Shown: positions 7,674 through 33,604 of the stretch, piece after piece | How positions within the stretch are numbered: position 1 is the stretch's first letter | Layout: each line of letters begins with the position of its first letter | Assembly (NCBI GenBank): GCA_013821605.1 | Contig: JACDGP010000013.1 | Location: 1 to 63,817 of the forward strand | From: Herpetosiphonaceae bacterium | GTDB lineage: Bacteria; Chloroflexota; Chloroflexia; Chloroflexales; Kallotenuaceae | Length of the DNA stretch: 63,817 nucleotides | Direction: 5' to 3' | The notes under the pieces: generated by a model | Told to the model about the DNA's origin: nothing | Databases searched by the model: none | What the model saw: only the letters and a program-made list of their open reading frames with translations | Made by a program: the position numbers and the translations under genes

Positions 7674-10600
7674 ATGTTCACCATTCCTGTCCGTCCACCC
7701 CAGTCCGGTCGCAGCCTTGATCGGCTCCTGGCACTCCTAGTGCTGCTGTGCGCTGGCTTTGTCGCGCTGCCGGTACCGGCAGCCCACGCGGCTGGCTTCG
7801 TCGTGACGACCACCGCTGATAGCGGTCCGGGCTCACTGCGCCAAGCGATCACCGATGCCAACAACAGCTCAGGGGCCGACACGATCAGCTTCAACATCCC
7901 GGGCACGGGACCCTTCACCATCGCCCCGACCTCAGGCCTCCCGTTTATTACCGAGGCCGTGGTGATCGATGGATTATCGCAGCCGGGAGCGAGTTGCGCG
8001 AGTTGGCCACCAACCTTGCAGATCGAATTAACTGGCAGCAATGCCGGAAACGGTGTTCAGGGTCTTGCGATCCGTAGCAATGGGAGCACAGTCCAGGGGT
8101 TGGTCATCAACCAGTTTAATAACGAGGGTATTAATTTGGGTGGTAACAACAACACCATCGAATGCAATTTCCTCGGGACCGATACCACGGGCACGGTAGC
8201 ACGGCGCAACGGCGCTGGAGTTGGCGTGCAAGGGGTAACAAATGTGATCGGCGGCACGACTGCCAGTGCGCGCAATCTCATCTCGGGCAATCTCGGGAAT
8301 GGGATTGAAATAGATACCGCTGCCGCAATCGGCAACCAAGTACAAGGCAACTACATCGGCACCGATGTCACAGGTACGCAGCCGCTTGGCAATGTCGGCA
8401 TTGGCGTGCTCCTTGCAACTGGAGCGACCAACACCCACGTCGGCGGCACCACGAGCGGGACCGGGAATCTGATCGCAAGCAATAGCACGGGCGTAGTCAT
8501 CACACTCAGCGGGACGAGCGGCAACCAAGTGCAGGGCAATGCTATTGGTACCGATGTAACTGGCACCAAGGCGCTCGGCAACGGCGGCGGTGTGCTCATT
8601 TCAGGTGGAGTAACCAACAACCTGATCGGCGGCACGACTACCAGTGCGCGCAACCTCATCTCGGGCAATCGGGGGAATGGGATTGAAGTAGACAACGCAA
8701 GCGGGAACCAAGTACAAGGCAACTACATCGGCACCGACGTGACGGGTATGCAGCCGCTCGGCAATGTCGGCACCGGCGTGCTCCTTGCAAGTGGAGCGAC
8801 CAACACCCTCGTCGGCGGTACCACGAACGAGACCGGGAATCTGATCGCAAGCAATGGCAATGGCGTGTTCATCCAAAACAGCGGGACGAGCGGCAACCAA
8901 GTGCAGGGCAATACCATCGGTACTGATGTGACCGGCACCAAGGATCTTGGGAACAGTGATAGTGGGGTGGTGATCTGTTGCGGGGCCAGCAACAACACGA
9001 TTGGGGGGACCACGGCAGGCGCAGGCAATCGTATCGCCTTTAGCAAAGGGCGCGCGGGCGTGCTGGTCAATGATGCCGGGACGGTCGGCAATACGGTCGA
9101 GGGCAACACCATCTTCGCCAATACCCGCCTCGGTATTGATTTCAATGGCAATGGGGTCACGCCCAACGACCCAGGTGACACGGATACGGGTCCCAACAAC
9201 CTGCAGAACTTCCCAGTGCTAACAGCTGCCACCGGCGACAGTATCACGGGCACGCTTAACAGCACGCCCGCTACCACCTTCCGCCTGGAGTTCTTCGCTA
9301 ACAGTAGCTGCGATCCATCGGGCAACGGCGAGGGCGAGCAGTACGTGGGCAGCGTGGATGTCACGACCGCTGGCAGCGGCAACACCAGCTTCAGCTACAG
9401 CTATACGCCGGTCAGCGGCAAGCCGATCCTGACCGCCACCGCCACTGATCCCCAAGGCAACACGTCGGAGTTCTCGGCCTGTCGCACACTCAACAATCCG
9501 CCAGTGGCCGCTGACGACAGCTACAGCACGAACGAAAACACGGTGCTGAATGTGGCTGCGCCGGGTGTGCTCGGGAACGACAGCAACACGGATGGCAATC
9601 CGTTGACCGCACAACTCGTCCAAGGTCCGAGTCATGGGCAGCTCACCTTGAACACAGATGGCTCGTTCACATACACGCCGACCACCAACTATTCGGGCGC
9701 GGACAGTTTTACCTACCAAGCCAGTGATGGCCTAGCGCTGTCTAACGTCGCCATGGTCTCCATTACCGTGAACCATGTCAACCAGCCGCCCGTGGCGCAG
9801 AACGACAGCTACAGCATCAACGAGAACACGCCACTGACGGTCGCGGCTCCCGGCATACTCGGGAACGACAGCGACGTGGACGGGAATCCGTTGACCGCCG
9901 TGCTCGGTACTCGCACCGACCCCGCCCACTCCACTGCGTTTACCTTCAACCCGGACGGCTCGTTCAGCGTTACTCCGGCGACCAACTACACGGGCGTCCT
10001 CTACTTCACCTATCAAGCTAGCGACGGTCAAGCGCTCTCTAACGAGGTCACCGTTAGCATTACCGTCAACGCGGTCAACCAGGCGCCGGTGGCCACTGAC
10101 GACAGCTACACGACCAACGAGAACACGCCCCTGACGGTTGCGGCTCCCGGTGTACTCCAAAACGACAGTGATGTCGATAGCCCCACCCTCACAGCCCAGC
10201 TCGTGAGCGGTCCGAGCCACGGCCAGCTCACGCTCAACTCGGATGGCTCGTTCACCTACACACCGACCACTAACTACTCGGGCGACGATAGCTTCACCTA
10301 TCAAGCCAGCGATGGCCAACTCACCTCGAATGTGGCCACGGTCAGCATTACGGTGAACCATGTCAACCAGACACCGGTAGCGCAAGACGATAGCTACAGC
10401 ACGAACGAGAACACACCCCTCACGGTCGCGGCTCCTGGTGTGCTTGGGAACGATTCGGACGTCGATAGCGTCAACCTCACGGCACAGCTTGTCAGCGGTC
10501 CGAGCCATGGTCAGCTCACGCTCAACTCGAATGGCTCGTTCGCGTACACGCCGACCACTAACTACTCCGGTGCTGACAGCTTTACTTACCGAGCGAGCGA

Positions 10601-11180
10601 TGGTCAAGCGTTGTCGAATGTCGCCACGGTCAGCATTACGGTGAACCACGTCAACCAGCCGCCGACGGTCGTGGTGAGTGCGGGTGGAACGTGCTTGCGA
10701 GACTCCAGTGGGCAGATCAATTTGACGGTCGCGGATGTGGACAGTCAGGTAAGCACCTTGACGCTCAGTGCCACGTCCTCCAACCAGCAGTTGGTGCCGA
10801 ATGGGTTCATCAAGTTCGGTGGCAGTGGAGCCAAGCGGACCATGACGGCCACGGCGAGCGACGGCCAGCGGGGGCAAGCGACGCTCACGATCACCGTGAG
10901 TGATGGCAGTGCGAGGAGCAGCCTCACGGTTACGGTGATCGTAGGCAGTTCGGGCAACGAGACGCTGACCGGTACCAACGGGCCGGATCTGCTCTTCGGC
11001 CTCCAAGGGAACGACACGCTCAATGGCAACGGCGGCAACGATCTGCTGTGCGGCGGCAACGGCAATGACACTCTGACTGGTGGGAGCGGTGCTGATTTCT
11101 TTAGTGGTGGACGAGGCACGGATACCATCACCGATTTCAACCCGACGGAAGGCGATACCAAAGATCGCACCATTCCGTAG
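7674..11180 (+). CDS. Secreted beta-helix / Ig-like repeat / RTX surface protein (copy 2)
   Basis: A 1168-residue paralogue of the 4666-7485 protein. It has the same signal peptide region (MFTIPVRPPQSGRSLDRLL, cleavage after AAHA), the same GPGSLRQAITDANN opening and a longer beta-helix (about 120-500, repeated GNYIGTDVTGT and GNLIASN). The FRLEFFANSSCDPSGN domain is followed by four cadherin-like repeats (96, 99, 96 and 96 residues) and the VVVSAGGTCLRD domain. A C-terminal RTX block, NDTLNGNGGNDLLCGGNGND, ends the protein. Cell-surface or matrix location is inferred from the signal peptide and calcium-binding repeats. Length differs from copy 1 through an extra beta-helix stretch and one extra Ig-like repeat. 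The leader ACGAAGCGAGGT is shared with copy 1. Confidence 0.92.
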   Translation: MFTIPVRPPQSGRSLDRLLALLVLLCAGFVALPVPAAHAAGFVVTTTADSGPGSLRQAITDANNSSGADTISFNIPGTGPFTIAPTSGLPFITEAVVIDGLSQPGASCASWPPTLQIELTGSNAGNGVQGLAIRSNGSTVQGLVINQFNNEGINLGGNNNTIECNFLGTDTTGTVARRNGAGVGVQGVTNVIGGTTASARNLISGNLGNGIEIDTAAAIGNQVQGNYIGTDVTGTQPLGNVGIGVLLATGATNTHVGGTTSGTGNLIASNSTGVVITLSGTSGNQVQGNAIGTDVTGTKALGNGGGVLISGGVTNNLIGGTTTSARNLISGNRGNGIEVDNASGNQVQGNYIGTDVTGMQPLGNVGTGVLLASGATNTLVGGTTNETGNLIASNGNGVFIQNSGTSGNQVQGNTIGTDVTGTKDLGNSDSGVVICCGASNNTIGGTTAGAGNRIAFSKGRAGVLVNDAGTVGNTVEGNTIFANTRLGIDFNGNGVTPNDPGDTDTGPNNLQNFPVLTAATGDSITGTLNSTPATTFRLEFFANSSCDPSGNGEGEQYVGSVDVTTAGSGNTSFSYSYTPVSGKPILTATATDPQGNTSEFSACRTLNNPPVAADDSYSTNENTVLNVAAPGVLGNDSNTDGNPLTAQLVQGPSHGQLTLNTDGSFTYTPTTNYSGADSFTYQASDGLALSNVAMVSITVNHVNQPPVAQNDSYSINENTPLTVAAPGILGNDSDVDGNPLTAVLGTRTDPAHSTAFTFNPDGSFSVTPATNYTGVLYFTYQASDGQALSNEVTVSITVNAVNQAPVATDDSYTTNENTPLTVAAPGVLQNDSDVDSPTLTAQLVSGPSHGQLTLNSDGSFTYTPTTNYSGDDSFTYQASDGQLTSNVATVSITVNHVNQTPVAQDDSYSTNENTPLTVAAPGVLGNDSDVDSVNLTAQLVSGPSHGQLTLNSNGSFAYTPTTNYSGADSFTYRASDGQALSNVATVSITVNHVNQPPTVVVSAGGTCLRDSSGQINLTVADVDSQVSTLTLSATSSNQQLVPNGFIKFGGSGAKRTMTATASDGQRGQATLTITVSDGSARSSLTVTVIVGSSGNETLTGTNGPDLLFGLQGNDTLNGNGGNDLLCGGNGNDTLTGGSGADFFSGGRGTDTITDFNPTEGDTKDRTIP
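9498..10658 (+). repeat. Four tandem Ig-like coding repeats (288/297/288/288 bp)
   Basis: Units begin at 9498, 9786, 10083 and 10371, and the next domain begins at 10659. The second unit is nine bases longer because of a GTRTDPAHSTAF insertion replacing VQGPSHGQ. Units are closely related to those at 6085-6948. Confidence 0.9.
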
Positions 11181-11240
11181 GGACGTGAGTTTGAGGCCTC
11201 AGGTGGTGTCCTCATGTGGAAAAACCATAACAACCAAGAG

Positions 11241-19604: not shown

Positions 19605-20725
19605 TATTGTTGCACTTCCGCGATCGCTTGGGTATAGATCCCAGTGTCGCCAAAAAATTTGGGTGTGACAGCCGCCCAACCACCCAGATCCTTGAGCATG
19701 AACAAATCTTGGACCGCTGGATACTGGCTGGCTGTCGTCTGCGCGACGCTTTTATCGACCGAGCGGTTGCCGGTGGCCGCAAAGACCTTCTGTGCCTCCG
19801 GTCCGAGCAAGTAGCTGATGAAGGCTTCAACCGCCTTGCGGTTGCCATGTTTGTCGACATAGGTATCGACCAGCGCGATCGGGCTTTCGATCAAGAGCGT
19901 TGATTTGGGTATTACGAGATCGACCGTGCCACCGCTCTGTTGGGCAATCACGACCTCGCTCTCATACGTAATCGCCACGTCGCCGATCCCTTTTTCAAAG
20001 GTCGTGACGCTGGACCGTCCGTCCTTGTCCATCACGCTCACATTCTTGAGCACCTTCTTCATGAAATCGGTCGCTGCTGCAGGGTCGCCCTTCGCAACCC
20101 CGTCCACATTGCCGCGTAACGCTGCGCCATACATACCCATCACGTTCCACTGCGCACCACCGCTGGTCTTGGGATTAGGGATCAAGACATTAACGCCGGG
20201 CTTTGCCAGATCCGCCCAATCCTTAATGCCCTTTGGATTGCCTTTGCGGACCGCAAAGGCCACGATCGAGTTCTGTACCATTCCTTGCGTCGGGCCTGCT
20301 TTCCAATCATGCGTGATCAGGCCTGCTTTGGCGATGGTCGCGACGTCTGCTTCCAGTGACAACGCTGCAACGTCCGCATCAAAGCCCTGCACAATCGCAC
20401 GTGCCTGTGCACCGGAGCCCAGATATGACTCTTCAAAGGTTACATCCTGACCACTCTGATCTTTCCAATACTTTTTGAACATTGGAATAATCTTGGCATA
20501 GGCGTCGCGGGGAGTGCTATAGGCACCCAAGGTAATCTTTACTGCACCACCGGCGGACCCGGCACTTGTAGCCGCAGCGTTAGCTGCACCGCTGGTCGAG
20601 GCCGCACTGGTCGTGTCACCATTCTGTGTAGCATTCGATCCAGTGCTTGTTGCGGGAGCTCCGCAGGCAGCCAGCAGAGTGGCAAGTACGATGAGCAGGG
20701 CGGACACTATGTGGAGACGTTTCAT
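19604..20725 (-). CDS. Sulfate-binding lipoprotein of ABC transporter
   Basis: A 373-residue periplasmic-type binding protein with a lipoprotein signal (VLATLLAAC, lipid-anchored Cys21) and a Ser/Thr/Ala-rich linker to about residue 55. The mature part matches the sulfate/thiosulfate group: TLGAYSTPRDAYAKIIPMF, TFEESYLGSGAQARAI, LSLEADV, NPKTSGGAQWNVM, VAITYESEV and the C-terminal LGPEAQKVFAATGNR. It captures sulfate outside the cell and delivers it to CysT/CysW. ATG overlaps the cysA stop by four bases. It could be Sbp or CysP; specificity cannot be told from the sequence. Confidence 0.93.
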   Translation of the reverse strand: MKRLHIVSALLIVLATLLAACGAPATSTGSNATQNGDTTSAASTSGAANAAATSAGSAGGAVKITLGAYSTPRDAYAKIIPMFKKYWKDQSGQDVTFEESYLGSGAQARAIVQGFDADVAALSLEADVATIAKAGLITHDWKAGPTQGMVQNSIVAFAVRKGNPKGIKDWADLAKPGVNVLIPNPKTSGGAQWNVMGMYGAALRGNVDGVAKGDPAAATDFMKKVLKNVSVMDKDGRSSVTTFEKGIGDVAITYESEVVIAQQSGGTVDLVIPKSTLLIESPIALVDTYVDKHGNRKAVEAFISYLLGPEAQKVFAATGNRSVDKSVAQTTASQYPAVQDLFMLKDLGGWAAVTPKFFGDTGIYTQAIAEVQQ

Positions 20726-22650
20726 CGAATAACCTCTTCTGCAAGACTAACGCGACCGTTTGCTGCGATCCATGGCGCTCCCGCCGTCGCATAGCGTGAG
20801 CGTACAATCAAAATTGGATAAGTCGTGGTGCCCCTAACCAGTTGTTCTACGACTCCGACGACCGTCGTGTCGTTGCCTTCGCTCAACGGGGCTCCAAGCA
20901 CCAGCAAATCATGGTTACCGCTGGCCATTTCAGCCGTAATCGTGTCACGGACTGCACCGCTCCGTACCAATGTGTGGGCTTGCACCCCAAGCAGCCCCAG
21001 TGTGCGGACGCCTGCCTCTAAGAACCGTTCCGCACGCTGCTTGGCCTGATCTGGATTGCGAGTGTCTGTGATCACCGACATTAGTGTGACTTCTGCACCC
21101 AGGTGTCGTGCCAAGCGACCGGTAAACCTGACATCTTCCTTGCCTGGCTCGCCGCTACTCACACAGATCAAGATACGCGTCGGTGTTGGCTGCGCACTCG
21201 GCACCAACAGCAGATGATGCTCTCCCGCTTGTAAACATTGCTCTGCTAGTTCCACACGTCCTTCCACTGGTGCACCTGCGATGACCAGATTGGTGGGTTG
21301 CCGCTCAACCTCATGCGCGATCGCTCGCTCCAACGGTTCGTTCGCAGCCAGCGTCTCAAGGACCGGCAAGCCGCTCCCAATCTGCTCTTTGCCCTTATGA
21401 AGATGCTGTGCCAGCGCCTCACCGCGTAACCCATACCCCAGGATCGTCGTACGCGCATGTGCTAGTCGTGCGAGTTGTCCACCAAGTGCGAGTGCTGCTT
21501 GACCGGTCGGGGAGTCGTTGCTCAAAATCAACAGTCGCAGGCCGGGATGCGTTAGTGCATGCAAGGCGTGAATTCCGAGCCATGGCCGGTCACCCATCCG
21601 TAGCGGAAAACGGCGGGCCTGATCTTGGGAGCGCATCGCGTCGATCAAAATGCTGTCGCTACCGAAGGGTACGGCCGGCGCAATCGCTTGCACACCTGGT
21701 AAGGCCGGCAACCGCAGCCGTAATCGTTCGACCGAGCCAACAAAGGTCGTTTGTTCGACCTCAGCTTGACCTAGTGGTGGATCCTGTAAATCCGTTGCCG
21801 CGGGTGCCAGTGCTACATCCTCAGGTCGGAAAAGGACCTGGACGCGTTGCGCATCACCCATCTGCGCTGCCTCTGTTGCCAGCGGGAAGTGTAGGTCTCC
21901 CAGATGGACACCATCGGCCGTACATTGCCCGACCAGCAGATTCGCCATCCCCAGAAAGGTAGCGACGAACTCGGTCTGCGGCCGCTGGTACAACTCTTCG
22001 GGTGGCCCGACTTCCAGCAGCCGCCCCGCGTTCATGACGCCCATCCTGTCGGCCAGTTCAAACGCTTCTTCCTGGTCATGCGTCACGAAAATGGTCGTCA
22101 TGCCGATCTCGCGCTGCACCTCTTTCAATGTACGGCGCAGTTCAATGCGGATCTTGGCATCCAACGCCCCGAACGGCTCATCCAGCAACAGCACTGCGGG
22201 CGAATGTGCCAGCGCGCGGGCCAGCGCAACCCGTTGCTGCTGACCGCCCGACAACTGATGCGGCATCCGTTTACCGAGCCCCGCCAGTCCCACCAGTTCC
22301 AGCAACGTATCGCGCCGCTGCCTACGTTCGACTGCGGAGGCTTTACGAATCCGCAGCGCAAACTCAACATTATCCCCCACCGACATATGCCGGAAGAGCG
22401 CGTAGTTTTGAAACACAAAGCCGGTATCGCGCTGTTGTGGCAACATCTCTGTCACATCCCGACCGTGTAACAGGACCCGTCCTTGATCGATACCCGTCAA
22501 GCCCGCGATCATCCTGAGCACAGTACTTTTGCCACTCCCACTTGGTCCCAGCAGCACAAACAGCTCGCCATTGGCAATCTCAAGTGATACCTGGTTGACC
22601 ACTGGATGGCCTTCATAACGCTTGGTAAGTTGTTCAAGAACGATAGACAT
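20722..22650 (-). CDS. cysA: Sulfate ABC transporter ATPase CysA fused to two UspA-like domains
   Basis: A 642-residue protein; ordinary CysA is about 350. Residues 1-235 are a complete ABC ATPase: Walker A GPSGSGKST (35-43), Q-loop Q81, signature LSGGQ (133-137), Walker B VLLLDEP and switch His191. A TOBE-like domain spans about 265-350. Residues 370-485 and 490-618 look like two universal-stress-protein domains. The second is better kept, with the strand ILICVSSG, the segment HDLLVLGAP and the closing PILIVRS. UspA domains bind ATP or act in dimerisation, so they may regulate the importer. It heads the operon and overlaps the binding-protein gene by ATGA. AGGAAAGG precedes the start. Confidence 0.93.
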   Translation of the reverse strand: MSIVLEQLTKRYEGHPVVNQVSLEIANGELFVLLGPSGSGKSTVLRMIAGLTGIDQGRVLLHGRDVTEMLPQQRDTGFVFQNYALFRHMSVGDNVEFALRIRKASAVERRQRRDTLLELVGLAGLGKRMPHQLSGGQQQRVALARALAHSPAVLLLDEPFGALDAKIRIELRRTLKEVQREIGMTTIFVTHDQEEAFELADRMGVMNAGRLLEVGPPEELYQRPQTEFVATFLGMANLLVGQCTADGVHLGDLHFPLATEAAQMGDAQRVQVLFRPEDVALAPAATDLQDPPLGQAEVEQTTFVGSVERLRLRLPALPGVQAIAPAVPFGSDSILIDAMRSQDQARRFPLRMGDRPWLGIHALHALTHPGLRLLILSNDSPTGQAALALGGQLARLAHARTTILGYGLRGEALAQHLHKGKEQIGSGLPVLETLAANEPLERAIAHEVERQPTNLVIAGAPVEGRVELAEQCLQAGEHHLLLVPSAQPTPTRILICVSSGEPGKEDVRFTGRLARHLGAEVTLMSVITDTRNPDQAKQRAERFLEAGVRTLGLLGVQAHTLVRSGAVRDTITAEMASGNHDLLVLGAPLSEGNDTTVVGVVEQLVRGTTTYPILIVRSRYATAGAPWIAANGRVSLAEEVIR

Positions 22651-27053: not shown

Positions 27054-29933
27054 ATGATAAAGATGGACGGCGTAGATTCTGTGGAAGCTGACAGCTTGGT
27101 GGCGCAACTGCTTGAGGAGCCAAGTACAGCTTCGCGCCTAGAATCACTTTCCGACGATACTGCCCGCATCGTCGTGGAGCAGCTCAAGCAGGAGGCGGAT
27201 CGCTATTGGGGTATCAACGCCAATCATTCGCTCGAATTGGCGGCGGCGATCATTCACATCGGACAAGCGCGGCGGGACGTTGGGCAAACTGCGCTAGGTA
27301 TTATGGCCCGTGGCGATGCGCTCAAGCTGCTTGGTCGGACGACCGAAGCATGGCAAGCACTTGACGAAGCGGGCCAGCTGTTCTTGACCGCTGACGATGA
27401 TGTTGGCTGGGCGCGCACACGTATCGGTCGGCTGCGCATTTGTGTCGACCTCAATCGTGTCCACGAAGCACTTGCGGATGCCGAACGTGCACAGGTTATC
27501 TTCGCGCAACACGGCGAGCAGGAAAAACAACTGCGGCTGGAGCTCAACCTGGCTATCGTCTACGATCTATTAGGTGAGCATACCCAGGCACTGGCCTTAT
27601 TCCAGTTGGCACTTGCGCATGCCGTGTCCCTAGGAACGATCGGGACGCCCCATCTGGGTGCCTTATATACCAGTATTGGCCTCGCTTATCGGGCCTTAGG
27701 TAATTTTCATGAGGCTGCGCTGCATCATGAAAAAGCACGAACGTTTTTCATCGAGCGCAACCAACCAAGTGCCGTAGCGACGACCGAGCTAAATTTAGCA
27801 CATACTGCGATGGCGCAAGGGAGGTACCGCCATGCGCTGAAGCTCTTACACCATGCCCACGGTTTGCGTGTCACCGAACAGCTCATGCGCGATGCAGCAC
27901 AGATCAGTTGCGATATCGTTGAGTGCTATCTGTTGTTGAACCGGTATAGCGAGGCCCGGGAGTTGGCGCAGCAGCTCATCGAGATCCACCGAATGTTCCA
28001 TTCTACGTATCTCGAAGCTATTAACTTGCTGCATCTCGCGACGGCGGAAGCCGAGTCGGGCAATCTCCCAGCAGCACAATCGGCTCTTGACGCGGCGGAG
28101 CCGATCTTTTCGTCACTTGGTGCGACCTCCTGGGTCAAGACGACGCATCTGCGGCGCGGCCGCATTGCTTTACAACAAGGTGACATCAACGACGCACTGT
28201 CCTGGGCTCGTAGCACGGCTGCTCATTATCTAGCGACGGGACAGGATGTTCAGTATGCAACAGCCATGCTGCTGCAAGGACAAGCTGCTTTCGCCTCACA
28301 CGATCTCGAAGGGGCAGAAGCTGCTGCGATTGTGGCCTTGGGTATAGCTCAACGATGTAATGTCCCGCCACTACGTTATGCGTCGCATTTGCTGCTTGGG
28401 CGCAGTGCCGAGGTACGTGGAACGATCAGGAGTGCAATCCGGCGTTATCATGCTGCGGCGGCAACTGTGGACCGTGTGCAACGAAGCCTCACGATTACGC
28501 TGCGGCCCGGATTCCTCGAAGACAAAGGCGAGGCGTTGCATGCACTGCTCATGCTCTACCTGCATAATGGGCAGGTTGCCTCCGCATGGGAGGCTCTAGA
28601 GCGGGCTAAAGGTCAGGTGCTCTTAGGCTACCTAGCGAATCGGGAGCAGTTGCGCTGGGCCAGTGATGAAGCCGATAGCCGTGCTCTGGTCGAAGAACTC
28701 AACCAACTACGGGCAGAGCACCAGTCGTTCTACCATATCGCCCATGCGGAACCGGATCTCGTAACCGGCGCGTTACCCGCGCTCTCGGCCGAGCAAGCGC
28801 TAGCGGAGGTTAAGGCCCGCGAACTGCGCATGCGTGCCATTACTGAGCAGCTTTACCTGCGAGGTGGCGATGCCGACGATCAACGCCATCGACCGGTACC
28901 CGCGTTGCTCGATATTCAGCACTGCCTGGATGATGACACACTGTTGATCGAGTTTTATCATGACGGAGGTACATTCTGGGCCTGGACACTAGACCGCCAG
29001 CGGTTAAGCGTTCATTGCTTACCCGTATTGGCTGAGACGCTGAGGTCGTTGTTAGCCCAACTGGAGGTTAATCTGGCGGCTGCACTGCGGCTCGGACCAG
29101 ATGCTCCGGCGGTACTGCCGCTCGCGCTCGCGGCACGGCGCATCGCCCAGCGTTTATACCATCTCTTGTTCCAACCACTTGCGGATCACCTTCAAGGTCG
29201 TCGCCGCCTCGTCATCGTGCCCTATGGGCCGCTCCACTATCTGCCATTTCACCTGCTGCATACTGGTGTAGCATATCTTGCGGAGCAGTATGAAATCGTG
29301 ATTTTGCCCGCTGCAGCCTTGTTGTCCCGGCGCGTCCCGCAACGGAGCGGAGGTGCGCGGGTGCTCGTGCATTCACATCATGGTCGCCTCCCACAAACCT
29401 TGATCGAGGGGCAATCCGTCCAACGGATCTTTGGCGGTGAAATCTATCATGACGAGGCAGCGAATCGGCGTGCGCTTGAAGCAGCGCCGAGTCAAATTTT
29501 GCATATCGCTGCCCATGGTGAGCACCGTCTCGATAACCCCGACCTGTCGTATATTGAGTTAGCCGACGGTCAACTCTACACCGACGATCTGCTGCAACAA
29601 GATATGAGCTACGAACTCGTGACATTGAGTGCCTGCGAAACCGGCCGGGCGCGCGTTGCATTGTCCGATGAACTCATTGGCTTAGGGCGTGGCTTTCTAT
29701 ATGCTGGAGCAGGGGCCTTGATCGTCAGTCTATGGCAGATCGTCGATGCGCGTGTGGTGGTCTTTATGGAACAGCTGTATAGTGCGCTGTATGAGGGTGC
29801 ATCGAAGGCAGCGGCACTACGAAGTGTGCAAAGCGGATTGTTAGCCGCCGAGCCCGATCTGCATCCCGCCTTTTGGGGAGCCTTTCAGCTTATTGGTGAT
29901 GCCGGCCCACTTTCAGGTACAAGTCCTAGCTAA
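27054..29933 (+). CDS. TPR-CHAT caspase-like protein
   Basis: A 959-residue protein without signal peptide. Roughly 640 N-terminal residues are tetratricopeptide-type helical hairpins (for example ALYTSIGLAYRALGNFHEAA and the same pattern repeated). The C-terminal 300 residues are a CHAT domain, a caspase-like cysteine peptidase fold. Both catalytic positions are intact: His821 in HIAAHGEH and Cys861 in LSACETGRA. The late LGRGFLYAGAGALIVSLWQ segment is also typical. TPRs in such proteins usually sense a partner and gate the peptidase. It is followed 14 bases later by a subtilase gene and is convergent with a sigma/anti-sigma pair. Start: ATG at 27054 or 27063; neither has a strong ribosome binding site. 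Confidence 0.93.
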   Translation: MIKMDGVDSVEADSLVAQLLEEPSTASRLESLSDDTARIVVEQLKQEADRYWGINANHSLELAAAIIHIGQARRDVGQTALGIMARGDALKLLGRTTEAWQALDEAGQLFLTADDDVGWARTRIGRLRICVDLNRVHEALADAERAQVIFAQHGEQEKQLRLELNLAIVYDLLGEHTQALALFQLALAHAVSLGTIGTPHLGALYTSIGLAYRALGNFHEAALHHEKARTFFIERNQPSAVATTELNLAHTAMAQGRYRHALKLLHHAHGLRVTEQLMRDAAQISCDIVECYLLLNRYSEARELAQQLIEIHRMFHSTYLEAINLLHLATAEAESGNLPAAQSALDAAEPIFSSLGATSWVKTTHLRRGRIALQQGDINDALSWARSTAAHYLATGQDVQYATAMLLQGQAAFASHDLEGAEAAAIVALGIAQRCNVPPLRYASHLLLGRSAEVRGTIRSAIRRYHAAAATVDRVQRSLTITLRPGFLEDKGEALHALLMLYLHNGQVASAWEALERAKGQVLLGYLANREQLRWASDEADSRALVEELNQLRAEHQSFYHIAHAEPDLVTGALPALSAEQALAEVKARELRMRAITEQLYLRGGDADDQRHRPVPALLDIQHCLDDDTLLIEFYHDGGTFWAWTLDRQRLSVHCLPVLAETLRSLLAQLEVNLAAALRLGPDAPAVLPLALAARRIAQRLYHLLFQPLADHLQGRRRLVIVPYGPLHYLPFHLLHTGVAYLAEQYEIVILPAAALLSRRVPQRSGGARVLVHSHHGRLPQTLIEGQSVQRIFGGEIYHDEAANRRALEAAPSQILHIAAHGEHRLDNPDLSYIELADGQLYTDDLLQQDMSYELVTLSACETGRARVALSDELIGLGRGFLYAGAGALIVSLWQIVDARVVVFMEQLYSALYEGASKAAALRSVQSGLLAAEPDLHPAFWGAFQLIGDAGPLSGTSPS

Positions 29934-29947
29934 AAAGGAGTTTCGGT

Positions 29948-31444
29948 ATGTATGAGGCGCGTCTGCCACCGCCCCCCGAGCCACAACCCCTCCAGTATTT
30001 TGTACCAAATCAGATGCTGCTGCTTGTGGAGCACACCGGGCGGATCAGTCCTGAACAACTCGCAAGCTTCATTAAGGTCGTTGAGCAGCCCTTAGATGGT
30101 GTGCGCCTGGGCACCAGGCGCGTATTAACTTTCACTTCCCCGCAAACAGCCGACAAGCAAGCGCCCGCCTTCTCGCTGGTTTTCCTAACTGTGCAGGGCA
30201 TCAGCGATTCGACGGAACGGTTGATCCCATTAATCGATCATATCAACGATCAACTACGCCAACAAGCGATTGCGGGACTTACCCTACAAGTCGCATCACC
30301 GGACTGGCTGCTTAGTGGTGCTCCCGACCATATTGGTACCGGTGGTCCTGGCACGCCACCCCTGAGTGTGGCCGGTAGTACGCTTGCAGGAGCAGGAAAT
30401 TTTCTGGCATCAGATGCACCATGGGCTTGGACGTTGCCCGACCGTCTCGCTCCAAAATTGCCACCCGAGCAGCGCGGCACGGGCGTTGACATTGCGATTC
30501 TGGATACTGCTCCTTGTGTTCATGATCTGGTTCATGCCTACGACCGCTGGCAGGCGACACAGCCCTTGCTTAGGAGCCTGCTCCGGCCTGGTGGCCAACT
30601 ACACGTGCAGAATGCTGACTATAGCGATCTCGTGCGACTAGCAGGCTACCAGCTCAAAGACCACCGCTATGTCATGGCCGATCATGGCTTATTCGTGGCC
30701 GGGATTATCCATACCCTCGCGCCGCAGGCCAATCTGCACTTGATCGAGGTACTCAATCCTTATGGTGTTGGCGATCTGGAAAGCATTGCACTCGGCTTAT
30801 GGCGACTGACGAAGCGCCAGAGCCAGCGTCCACTGTTGATCAACTGTAGTCTGGTCGTCAATATTCCGTTGCCGGGGCATCCACACCCCGAGCTGAACTG
30901 GGAACGGCTGATCAATGAACCTGAACTCGCGAAATTGATGGGTCTCCCGCTGGAATCGATTTGTAATACCTTGCTAGGCGAACAGGTACAGGTTGTTGCT
31001 GCCGCCGGAAATGATAGCAGCAAGCATGATCTGCCTGCTCGCTTCCCAGCAGCATTCAATAGTGTCGTTGGGGTAGGAGCATTGCAGAAGGATGGTCAGC
31101 CGGCTTCCTACTCTAACCTGTCGGATACTCCCGTGCCTAACAGTATCGCCACATTTGGCGGGACGGCTCACACTGGCCTCGCCACAGCGGGCGAAGCGGT
31201 GTTGGGTGTCTTTACCGGCGATTTTCCTGGGACGACACCCGGCAGCACCACCCCGAATACCAATGGCTGGGCTTGGTGGTCGGGGACATCCTTCGCGACC
31301 CCGGTGGTCACCGGCGTATTGGCAGCGCTGATGTCGCAAGGCATGTCTGCCAGCGCAGCGAGCAGCATGCTGCAAACGGCTGACCAGACGCATGCCCAGA
31401 CCAACGCGGGGGAAGGCGTTCTTGCAGTTCGTCAAGGTAGTTAA
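29948..31444 (+). CDS. Intracellular S8 (subtilisin-family) serine protease
   Basis: A 498-residue subtilase with all three catalytic residues: Asp186 in VDIAILDTAP, His246 in ADHGLFVAGI and Ser448 in GTSFATPVVTG. The oxyanion Asn lies in VVAAAGNDSS. No signal peptide is present, so it should work inside the cell. The first 165 or so residues (FVPNQMLLLVEHTG onwards) form a separate N-terminal domain that may be a prodomain or regulatory region. A strong AAAAAGGAG precedes the ATG and only 14 bases separate it from the CHAT-TPR stop. A cascade in which one peptidase activates the other is a reasonable hypothesis but is not shown. Confidence 0.93.
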   Translation: MYEARLPPPPEPQPLQYFVPNQMLLLVEHTGRISPEQLASFIKVVEQPLDGVRLGTRRVLTFTSPQTADKQAPAFSLVFLTVQGISDSTERLIPLIDHINDQLRQQAIAGLTLQVASPDWLLSGAPDHIGTGGPGTPPLSVAGSTLAGAGNFLASDAPWAWTLPDRLAPKLPPEQRGTGVDIAILDTAPCVHDLVHAYDRWQATQPLLRSLLRPGGQLHVQNADYSDLVRLAGYQLKDHRYVMADHGLFVAGIIHTLAPQANLHLIEVLNPYGVGDLESIALGLWRLTKRQSQRPLLINCSLVVNIPLPGHPHPELNWERLINEPELAKLMGLPLESICNTLLGEQVQVVAAAGNDSSKHDLPARFPAAFNSVVGVGALQKDGQPASYSNLSDTPVPNSIATFGGTAHTGLATAGEAVLGVFTGDFPGTTPGSTTPNTNGWAWWSGTSFATPVVTGVLAALMSQGMSASAASSMLQTADQTHAQTNAGEGVLAVRQGS

Positions 31445-31445
31445 A

Positions 31446-31460
31446 AGGAGCCAAATGTAG
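31446..31460 (+). other. Ribosome binding site with immediate start-stop (ATG TAG)
   Basis: AAAGGAG followed by CCAA and ATGTAG lies directly after the subtilase stop. It repeats the ribosome binding site pattern used between the CHAT and subtilase genes but leads to a one-codon frame. It may be the relic start of a lost third operon gene or a start-stop element. Confidence 0.3.
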
Positions 31461-31468
31461 ATCGACAG

Positions 31469-31484
31469 CGCGGTTAGCACCGCG
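31469..31484. terminator. Hairpin between convergent subtilase and anti-sigma genes
   Basis: CGCGGT pairs with ACCGCG around TAGC in the 53-base gap between the two convergent operons. It may serve both directions; no T-run is present on either side. Confidence 0.35.
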
Positions 31485-31497
31485 TCGGAACCACTCG

Positions 31498-32220
31498 TCA
31501 AGATGCGAGTATGAGAGCGGGCAGAATAATCGAGTTGCCCTCTTTGGGCGTAATGCGTAGTGTACTTGGGGCGATAGGTAGTGGCCCGCATTGCCATCCG
31601 CCAAGATCATCGACGCGGGCTGTAGCCATGAGCAGATCAGCTTGTCGCACTTCGACCAGCGCCCCGGTCCAACCGTCTTGCTCGTCGGCCGCGATCTGAC
31701 CGACGATGACGATCTGCTCGTTAGGAGTCCGTTCGATCTCCACAATCACAGTTGTCCCATCTGCCTCGGCCACGATCGGCTCCCTACTACTGCCACGTAG
31801 CGCGAGTGAACTGCGTTGTGGTATCAGCCGCGCGATCACTTCACCAAAAGTGTGTGGTCGCGTCTTAGGCACCAGTATCATTTGAGGTTGTTCCTGCTCG
31901 TCGGGTGCCGTTGCTAAAAACTGGCGTAGCTCCTCAACTTCGGCTTTACATAAAGCACATTCTTCAAGATGCCGGCGGACCACACGCTCCTCCACGGCAC
32001 TCAACACCCCTAGATGATATTCCCCTAACTGTTGCGTGGATGGGCAGTCCCAACGTTTGAGTGTGGTTACCAGACGTTGTTCAAGGGCACGCGCTTGTGC
32101 GAGCCGCTCGCTGCAATATGGGCATTGGCTGAGATGGGTATGCTCCTCTGGCGTGGCTGTCCCATCGATCAGCACGCTTATTTGATCCGCAGACAGCGGC
32201 GGTGGGACGGAACACGGCAT
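31498..32220 (-). CDS. Putative zinc-finger anti-sigma factor
   Basis: A 240-residue protein with two cysteine-rich helices. The first, HLSQCPYCSERLAQA, lies near residue 35. The second is the classic H-x3-C-x2-C anti-sigma finger HLEECALCKAEVEELR, near residue 85. The remainder (about 110-240) is rich in short strands (TVIVEIERTPNEQIVIVGQI) and looks like a beta-sandwich. There is no membrane helix, so it would be a soluble anti-sigma or sensor. The start at 32220 is preferred over TTG at 32244 because GAGG lies six bases before it. It is the second gene after the sigma factor on the same strand, the usual order of such pairs. Confidence 0.8.
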   Translation of the reverse strand: MPCSVPPPLSADQISVLIDGTATPEEHTHLSQCPYCSERLAQARALEQRLVTTLKRWDCPSTQQLGEYHLGVLSAVEERVVRRHLEECALCKAEVEELRQFLATAPDEQEQPQMILVPKTRPHTFGEVIARLIPQRSSLALRGSSREPIVAEADGTTVIVEIERTPNEQIVIVGQIAADEQDGWTGALVEVRQADLLMATARVDDLGGWQCGPLPIAPSTLRITPKEGNSIILPALILAS

Positions 32221-32281
32221 GCTTACCTCATCTCTCAATATCAACTGTAAAGCTCGTTATCAGACTAAATGCAAAAAAAGG

Positions 32282-32950
32282 TTAAATATCACTCGCCCAC
32301 CGGCATAGCTCCGCATTATTCCGTAATAGGTGACGAATGCGATACGTTGCGACGGTAACCTCACGCTCATTGCTCCACTGCAGCGGATAGGCCGAGACGA
32401 TCTGGCGTGGTTTTAAGTCCAGCAGGAAAATGCATCGCGCCAAGTTACGGTCGTGGGGATCAGGGAGCAAGTGGCAGATATGTGCCCACAGTTCGGCCGC
32501 GTCAGTACGCGCCAAGAGGTCTGGTGTTTCACCAAGCTCATGCACATCTTCCAGCGGAGTCACATCAACCGGATGCTGGTCGCGCAAATACTGCATGATG
32601 GCAGTATGCACGCACATCTTAAGATAAGCTAGCACCTGCGGCACGCCGGCGAAGCGCGCGAACTTCGGCCCCTGCATAGCAAAGTAGAAGGTGCGCAAGG
32701 CAGCCCCAGCAAAAAAATCGGCATTCTCACCCGTGAGGGCGAAGCGACTATGACCTTGCACCCACCTGATCACCTGCGGCTCATAGATCTGGTAAACATG
32801 GGTAAAGGCCTCTGCCATGCCCTTGGCCAGCGCCCGGCGTAAGAGCTCGAAGCAAAACTGCGGGTCGCTCCCTTGGCGATCATTCCATTTCTTGGTTTCT
32901 TCGGCGCATCGTTGTGCCAAGCCATCGATCGACAAGCTCGCCGTTGCCAT
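32282..32950 (-). CDS. ECF-like RNA polymerase sigma factor
   Basis: A 222-residue protein. Residues about 45-125 resemble sigma region 2 (FTHVYQIYEPQVIRWVQGH, then YLKMCVHTAIMQYLRD). Residues about 165-215 resemble region 4, with LDLKPRQIVSAYPLQW and the recognition helix EREVTVATYRIRHLLRNN. It is more divergent than standard ECF factors but keeps the overall plan. The zinc-finger gene follows 61 bases downstream, so the two form a sigma/anti-sigma pair. It is convergent with the CHAT-TPR/subtilase operon and likely controls it or responds to the same signal; that is inference from position. Confidence 0.8.
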   Translation of the reverse strand: MATASLSIDGLAQRCAEETKKWNDRQGSDPQFCFELLRRALAKGMAEAFTHVYQIYEPQVIRWVQGHSRFALTGENADFFAGAALRTFYFAMQGPKFARFAGVPQVLAYLKMCVHTAIMQYLRDQHPVDVTPLEDVHELGETPDLLARTDAAELWAHICHLLPDPHDRNLARCIFLLDLKPRQIVSAYPLQWSNEREVTVATYRIRHLLRNNAELCRWASDI

Positions 32951-33048
32951 ACGCTCTCCTCGCCGCGGGTTCGGTCATTCATAGTGTACACGATACCATG
33001 CCCCCTGTCTGCTGAGGTCGTGTGGAGGAGTTGGCGAAGGAGCGCCGT

Positions 33049-33219: not shown

Positions 33220-33604
33220 CTAGCGGCAGGGTGCGGCCCACTCAACGTGACGAGCGCGGGCGGGCCATGAATATCCACTCGTGTGGGCGAGGGATGGGAG
33301 CGAGTTGACCGGTGCACGAGCAGTTGGTCAACCACTTGGTCTGTTTCCAGAGCCCGCACTAGATGTGCAAACTCGCACGCTCCTGCCCGGTGACACCTTG
33401 TTGCTGTACACGGATGGGGTGACTGATACGGTGAATCCAGCCGGCGATGTGTTTGAGCTGGATGGCTTGCATGCGGCGGTGCGTGCTGCCACGGCGACAA
33501 CGGCCCAGGAGCTGTGCGACCATATCGTGGAGCGGGTCGTGACCTTTCAGGAGACGGCACAGCAGCACGATGATATAACGCTGGTCGTCGTACAAGCCTA
33601 CTGA
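33170..33604 (+). pseudogene. Truncated SpoIIE/PP2C-type phosphatase remnant
   Basis: The frame from 33251 to 33604 reads GHEYPLVWARDGSELTG, GQPLGLFPE, LLPGDTLLLYTDGVTDTVNP and HDDITLVVVQ. These are the last four signature blocks of SpoIIE-family Ser/Thr phosphatases, including the metal-binding YTDGVTD Asp and the final DD. The N-terminal half of the domain is missing. Just upstream, LNVTSAG matches the strand before GH but is one base out of frame, and a TGA stands at 33248. The best possible start, GTG at 33281, would give only 107 residues lacking the first metal-site motifs, so activity is unlikely. Confidence 0.7.

Follow-up and report, generated by a model that had tools for sequence, protein, structure and literature searches.

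The window (the whole stretch of 63,817 nt analysed here, whose numbering is used for all positions), from contig JACDGP010000013.1 of a Herpetosiphonaceae bacterium, harbors at positions 27054-32950 four genes, which encode a TPR-CHAT protease, a subtilase, a soluble anti-sigma protein and a divergent sigma factor that resembles the extracytoplasmic function (ECF) group. These genes are not a chance grouping; they form one widely conserved bacterial unit, of which the window holds a rearranged copy. The unit probably works as a protease-gated transcription switch, in which the CHAT protease would cut the anti-sigma protein at Arg150 and free the sigma factor, with the subtilase as an output of the switch.

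The four open reading frames (ORFs) are intact at the coordinates given for them in an earlier note made from the DNA alone ( Table 1 ), and the active-site residues named there, His821 and Cys861 of the CHAT protein and Asp186, His246 and Ser448 of the subtilase, are exactly placed. Neither window protease has a hydrophobic N-terminal segment, in agreement with the absence of signal peptides claimed in that note, and the 14 bases that it counted between the two peptidase genes are indeed what separates the CHAT stop codon from the subtilase ATG (29934-29947), leaving no space for a signal peptide upstream. The two fingers that it saw in the anti-sigma protein are present as H37-x3-C41-x2-C44 and H92-x3-C96-x2-C99. 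For this last gene the reading frame stands and the start probably needs correction: because GAGG lies just upstream of it, the ATG at 32220 is the likely start rather than the TTG at 32244. The protein counted from the ATG is 240 aa long; residue numbers here follow the ORF from TTG.

The conservation of the unit was assessed in 84,980 species genomes, scanned with a CHAT active-site pattern that is blind to neighboring genes, and 80 loci were found. Adjacency was counted in the 44 loci that have a TPR-CHAT protein of at least 900 aa and enough flanking DNA, and in 35 of these the sigma, anti-sigma/beta-domain and subtilase genes are all adjacent. The background, measured in the flanks of these loci beyond a distance of 4 kb, is one partner-gene match in 435 kb. 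Gene order is nearly always sigma, anti-sigma, CHAT and subtilase on one strand, with median gaps of 4 bases between the anti-sigma and CHAT genes and 48 bases between the CHAT and subtilase genes. The module is found in the Chloroflexota, Acidobacteriota, Planctomycetota, Actinomycetota (Rubrobacteraceae, plus at least 10 further genomes from a separate search) and a few bins of Pseudomonadota, where the phylum labels of single metagenome-assembled bins may be wrong. Rearranged copies also stay together: the subtilase gene lies upstream in L206 and L247, the CHAT gene is divergent in L252-L254, and the convergent arrangement of the window is divergent in two relatives from its own family, G150 (= L076) and G253 (= L117). 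TPR-CHAT orthologues occur in four of the six genomes of this family. In Ktedonobacterales without an adjacent subtilase gene, a member of the subtilase family is located elsewhere in the genome (2/2 checked), and the sigma family, present in 52 of 251 Chloroflexota genomes, is found in all 21 that have a strong subtilase match (E<1e-25). No fifth gene that is constant across types was found among the conserved neighbor clusters. The view of the earlier note that the four genes are one locus and one system is strongly supported by their adjacency in relatives from several phyla, the comparison on which it had staked that view beforehand.

The anti-sigma protein carries the residue on which the proposed switch would turn. 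Its predicted structure (mean predicted local distance difference test score, pLDDT, of 87.7) has a confident helical domain, a weak linker (block means of 51-60, with one block at 85) and a confident beta-sandwich. The helical domain contains HxxxCxxC, matches zf-HC2 in Pfam (E=4e-7) and is encoded beside a sigma gene, as in zinc-finger anti-sigma (ZAS) domains, and its sole fold match with Z >= 8 is ChrR in the SigE complex (Z 8.4, 1.4 Å over 49 residues, 29% identity). On this basis the window protein is predicted to be a ZAS-type sigma binder. The beta-sandwich is CarboxypepD_reg-like (PF13620 in 24 of 46 family members), and a fold search with it returned common sandwich matches alone, with Z up to 7.6. 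The relatives share a linker motif, roughly RLVA-L ... A-G-x-R-G/S, and its Arg (Arg150 in the window) is kept in 73 of the 74 anti-sigma proteins in the motif alignment. It is also kept in 17/17 Actinomycetota proteins fetched later, which were retrieved by a profile that includes the Arg column, for a total of 90 of 91. No residue of the protein is more conserved than Arg150, though it lies within a low-confidence loop. The only loss among the 91 is in L092 (8781-9647), a sigma/anti-sigma pair with no CHAT gene within about 8 kb. Other Chloroflexales without CHAT (L089-L097, L127-L130) have a sigma factor of the window's type (Type A, below) and an anti-sigma protein that has two fingers but neither linker nor beta-sandwich and is short, at about 127-142 aa in those with a clear start. 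The linker and sandwich are kept in L082, L101 and L131 despite the lack of an adjacent CHAT gene. A separate arrangement occurs in L119 (G000:C122), in the same genome as the window, where a second TPR-CHAT gene (7818-10475, +) converges with a gene for a linker/beta protein (10493-11218, -) that keeps the Arg (VSQFRGG) and has one finger, and no sigma gene was recognized with it. In the sister genomes L118 and L121, the pair comes with a sigma gene of the ECF group and with a subtilase that is exported.

The TPR-CHAT protein has the CHAT His/Cys dyad behind TPRs and belongs with the cysteine proteases of clan CD. Among solved structures, its predicted structure (pLDDT 91.4, predicted template modelling score 0.89) is matched best by Craspase Csx29 in complex with Csx30 (Z 35.1, 560 residues), and the separase protease domain matches with Z 28.5 and rmsd 3.1 over 322 residues. 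The NCBIfam model of Csx29 scores the window protein at 55.6 bits, where the cut-off is 300. His821, Cys861, Trp894 and Asp898 are invariant in an alignment of 35 relatives, and because the catalytic His and Cys are invariant in 35/35, protease activity is likely to be under selection. A wider count by regular expression found Asp at W+4 (Asp898) in 109 of 110 TPR-CHATs, and in the lone exception (L171) the expression had caught an earlier SxC. Asp898 is a candidate S1-pocket residue, a placement that draws on the separase structure and on the contrast with Csx29. The aligned Csx29 chains have Ser or Pro there. Separases have Arg at P1 and cut after it (PMC4626109, PMC4357240), and Craspases cut between M and K, L and D or A and S, sites that are not basic (PMC11106740).

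Two types of the module can be distinguished. Type A, to which the window belongs, has the divergent sigma factor, a two-finger anti-sigma protein and a subtilase without an exported look. Type B has a clear ECF sigma factor, a zinc-less anti-sigma half and a subtilase with a hydrophobic N-terminal segment. Two-finger loci have a subtilase without a hydrophobic N-terminus in 18 of 20 cases, the two exceptions being doubtful (a prodomain strand match in L135 and an unsure start in L079), and zinc-less loci have a subtilase with such a segment in 25 of 27. In the TPR-CHAT tree Types A and B separate almost into two clades, and the counts therefore stand for very few events. Since the TPR-CHAT protein, the linker Arg and the beta-sandwich stay constant in both clades while the sigma type, zinc fingers and subtilase location vary, we read the TPR-CHAT protein and the linker/beta part as the transducing core, and the sigma factor and ZAS domain as an exchangeable output.

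The sigma protein of the window matches TIGR02937 with E=0.0014 and has no Pfam match, and its close relative in L143 reaches Sigma70_r2 at Pfam's cut-off. A single clear family of Type A and Type B sigma factors was considered and rejected; they are described as two types because hhalign gives a weak match between their profiles (probability 13%, E 0.002). The two are merged by the iterated SIG model used early on for the neighbor counts, but not by the separate models made later. Just upstream of the sigma start, in the window (32965-32990) and in L117, is a near-palindromic element centered on GTACAC (CATAGTGTACAC / CATAGTACACTATG), which could be an operator or part of a promoter. The subtilase has the Asp/His/Ser triad and family signature of S8, with Asp186, His246 and Ser448 invariant in 28 relatives, and a fervidolysin-type prodomain (PF22148) is recognized in 12 of 28 family members; a PNW motif there is conserved. 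In six acidobacterial operons (L174, L177, L183, L186, L191 and L197) the subtilase gene is followed by an extra gene, whose product has an N-terminal hydrophobic segment and would be an exported or membrane protein.

From the gene set, gene order, domains and conserved residues computed here, we infer how such a switch could operate. At rest, the divergent sigma factor would be held by the ZAS domain of the anti-sigma protein. A cytosolic trigger, sensed by the TPR part, would activate the separase-like CHAT protease, which would recognize the anti-sigma protein by its linker and beta-sandwich half and cut after Arg150, that is, before the G of the ...LALRG... loop. The N-terminal piece would then be weakened or broken down, perhaps by general proteases in the manner known from RseA, so that the sigma factor would be released and its regulon turned on. 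The prodomain-bearing subtilase, encoded at the end of the ancestral operon, would most likely be an output. Cleavage of the anti-sigma factor by CHAT had been suggested in the earlier note; it has indirect support from the invariant linker Arg, from the separase/Csx29-type protease with its invariant acidic candidate for the pocket, and from the constant core.

Several observations weigh against the proposed switch. The window sigma factor is only weakly recognizable as a sigma factor, and in the window's family a promoter motif or dyad shared by the regions before the CHAT and sigma genes turned up no more often than in shuffled sequences. A cut in the linker would leave the ZAS domain on the sigma factor, and release would take a further step. 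Low pLDDT for the linker, in a shallow alignment, is no proof of disorder, the invariance of the Arg may reflect docking or folding, and the candidate pocket role of Asp898 comes from comparison with separase and Csx29 rather than from coordinates. Finally, the two types are two clades, and counts drawn from them are not independent. In a rival account proteolysis has two stages: CHAT cuts the linker of the anti-sigma protein first, and a cytosolic subtilase finishes the remaining zinc-finger piece, as DegS and RseP do on RseA. This would account for the presence of two proteases in one operon and for the lack of a signal peptide on the window subtilase, and it is consistent with the pairing of two-finger anti-sigma proteins and subtilases lacking a hydrophobic N-terminus. 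However, the Arg site is the same in Type B, where the hydrophobic N-terminal segment means that the subtilase can probably not act on a cytosolic piece, and the types represent few events. We consider two-stage proteolysis unlikely, though in Type A the subtilase may act in a second step on the anti-sigma protein once it is cut.

Conservation as strong as that of Arg150 could also mark an interface, and the cut sites of Craspase are themselves not conserved (PMC11106740), which would fit a docking or sensing unit made of the Arg and beta-sandwich, through which TPR-CHAT changes the grip of the anti-sigma protein without cutting. Against this, the catalytic dyad is invariant in all 35 TPR-CHATs aligned and the Arg lies in a low-confidence loop rather than in a confidently folded part, and we regard docking alone as quite improbable. 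Highly improbable is the proposal that a CHAT cut in the prodomain, one of the cleavages suggested in the earlier note, activates the subtilase, which then kills or remodels the cell by the logic of a caspase cascade. The two genes are adjacent, 14 bases apart, and the family does have a fervidolysin-type prodomain. However, no conserved Arg/Lys column precedes the catalytic Asp of the subtilase (the best reaches 57%, compared to 99% in the anti-sigma linker), and an Arg-type CHAT site in the prodomain was rejected for this reason; self-processing is usual in subtilases, and the exported subtilases of the sister type could not meet a cytosolic CHAT after export. Because the prodomain has no such conserved residue and the Type B subtilase, and with it that of roughly half of the families, looks exported, the most likely role for the subtilase is that of an output, not of a substrate or activator of CHAT. 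A different kind of alternative concerns purpose, and is compatible with the switch mechanism: the module could provide anti-phage abortive infection, as in Craspase or caspase-gasdermin systems. A TPR-CHAT does act in Craspase with Csx30 and a sigma factor (PMC10028731). The immune role raised in the earlier note nevertheless finds no support in the gene neighborhood: the module has no killing protein that stays constant, PADLOC found no defense genes beside the locus beyond generic ATPase, regulator and CARF-HTH matches (not a decisive result), and no gasdermin-like gene was recognized among the conserved neighbor clusters, although no search was aimed at gasdermins. The module also tracks lineages (TPR-CHAT orthologues in four of six genomes of the window's family, and in Ktedonobacterales), which is less typical of defense islands and likewise not decisive. 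Defense seems to us a rather unlikely purpose.

Table 1. Positions in the window of the four genes and of the parts of their products.
Feature	Position	Strand	Evidence
TPR-CHAT protease, 959 aa	27054..29933	+	PF12770 E=1e-55; catalytic His821 29514-29516, Cys861 29634-29636
TPR superhelix (about residues 34-476), probably the sensor	27153..28481	+	TPR_12 etc. (Pfam); helical pairs in model
Asp898, candidate S1-pocket residue of TPR-CHAT	29745-29747	+	conservation
S8 subtilase of 498 aa, intracellular and without signal peptide (Asp186/His246/Ser448)	29948..31444	+	PF00082 3e-15
Fervidolysin-type N-terminal prodomain of subtilase	29990..30322	+	in window protein by alignment only
Predicted soluble anti-sigma factor	31498..32244 (start probably ATG 32220)	-	zf-HC2; two-domain model; ChrR match
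CarboxypepD_reg-like beta-sandwich	31513..31776	-	model strands; PF13620 in relatives
Linker, conserved motif ending in invariant Arg	31777..31911	-	low pLDDT mostly; motif alignment
Codon of Arg150 (Arg142 counted from ATG), putative P1 of CHAT cleavage site	31795..31797	-	conservation
Zinc finger 2 HLEECALC	31948..31971	-	sequence, PF13490
Zinc finger 1 HLSQCPYC	32113..32136	-	sequence
Divergent sigma-70-family (ECF-like) sigma factor, 222 aa	32282..32950	-	TIGR02937 in 9/12 close relatives, best 4e-7

Beside the sigma gene, at 33281-33604 (+), is the C-terminal 107-aa part of a SpoIIE-type phosphatase (PF07228, 3.5e-23) whose upstream part is absent, a probable gene remnant. Further away, at 20722-22650 (-), is a gene for an ABC-transporter ATPase with a C-terminal half that resembles a universal-stress-protein domain.

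The closest precedent is Craspase (type III-E), which likewise combines a TPR-CHAT protease, a sigma inhibitor and an ECF-type sigma factor. In that system Csx29 relieves the sigma factor by cutting its inhibitor Csx30 at a flexible loop in the C-terminal domain, and the N-terminal half of Csx30 alone still binds the sigma factor (PMC10028731). By analogy, this would be a direct precedent for the cut proposed here. Unlike Craspase, the window module has no Cas7-11 or CRISPR RNA, its TPR part is far longer, and it has an additional subtilase; neither Cas7-11/gRAMP nor a CRISPR array was found among the scanned neighboring window genes. Its anti-sigma protein, with zinc fingers and a CarboxypepD_reg-like half, is not recognizably Csx30, and it has one invariant Arg site together with Asp at W+4, whereas Craspase sites are not conserved (PMC11106740). 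The protease-domain fold with preceding helices is shared with separase, as would be Arg at P1 (PMC4626109), but the proposed substrate is an anti-sigma factor and the setting a bacterial operon. The ZAS zinc domain is shared with ChrR of the ChrR-SigE pair. The C-terminal half of ChrR is a cupin, and in its place the window protein has a CarboxypepD_reg-like sandwich behind the conserved linker Arg. In the CalpL-CalpT-CalpS system of type III CRISPR, a cytosolic protease also cuts an anti-sigma factor and frees a sigma factor; that protease is of the Lon family, activated by cyclic oligoadenylate and linked to CRISPR, and the system has neither CHAT nor subtilase.

The earlier note knew of no description of this grouping. 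Its gene context had been described in part: for ECF54 of the Actinobacteria, a 2022 review (citing Casas-Pastor 2021 and Huang 2015) reports a conserved context of carboxypeptidase, subtilase and CHAT genes, and proposes proteolytic control and describes the group without an anti-sigma factor (PMC8999054). Apart from this remark, no description of the four-gene module or the Arg site was found in the literature searched, and the anti-sigma and cleavage-site reading is new. Type B loci fit the ECF54 context by gene content, as set against its description rather than an ECF54 model. The difference is that the CarboxypepD_reg-like gene here is predicted to encode an anti-sigma protein with a likely cleavage site, and that the window sigma factor comes from a separate, divergent family. 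If Type B is ECF54, its "carboxypeptidase" would be the beta-domain protein, an anti-sigma factor or a remnant of one.

In a broader sense, the module may represent a widespread and perhaps ancestral form of Craspase logic that is independent of CRISPR, in which, across at least five phyla, a separase-like TPR-CHAT frees sigma factors by cutting at one invariant anti-sigma Arg, with the beta-domain protein as the anti-sigma factor that ECF54-type systems were missing; we judge the case for and against this proposal to be evenly balanced. Craspase has looked like an isolated CRISPR invention, and a CRISPR-free operon of TPR-CHAT, anti-sigma and sigma genes offers a plausible ancestral form of it. 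The ECF54-type context, which was thought to lack an anti-sigma factor, would become a testable pathway with a cut site predicted to a single residue, and the module may provide a simple route to how proteases of the caspase/separase type sense signals in bacteria.

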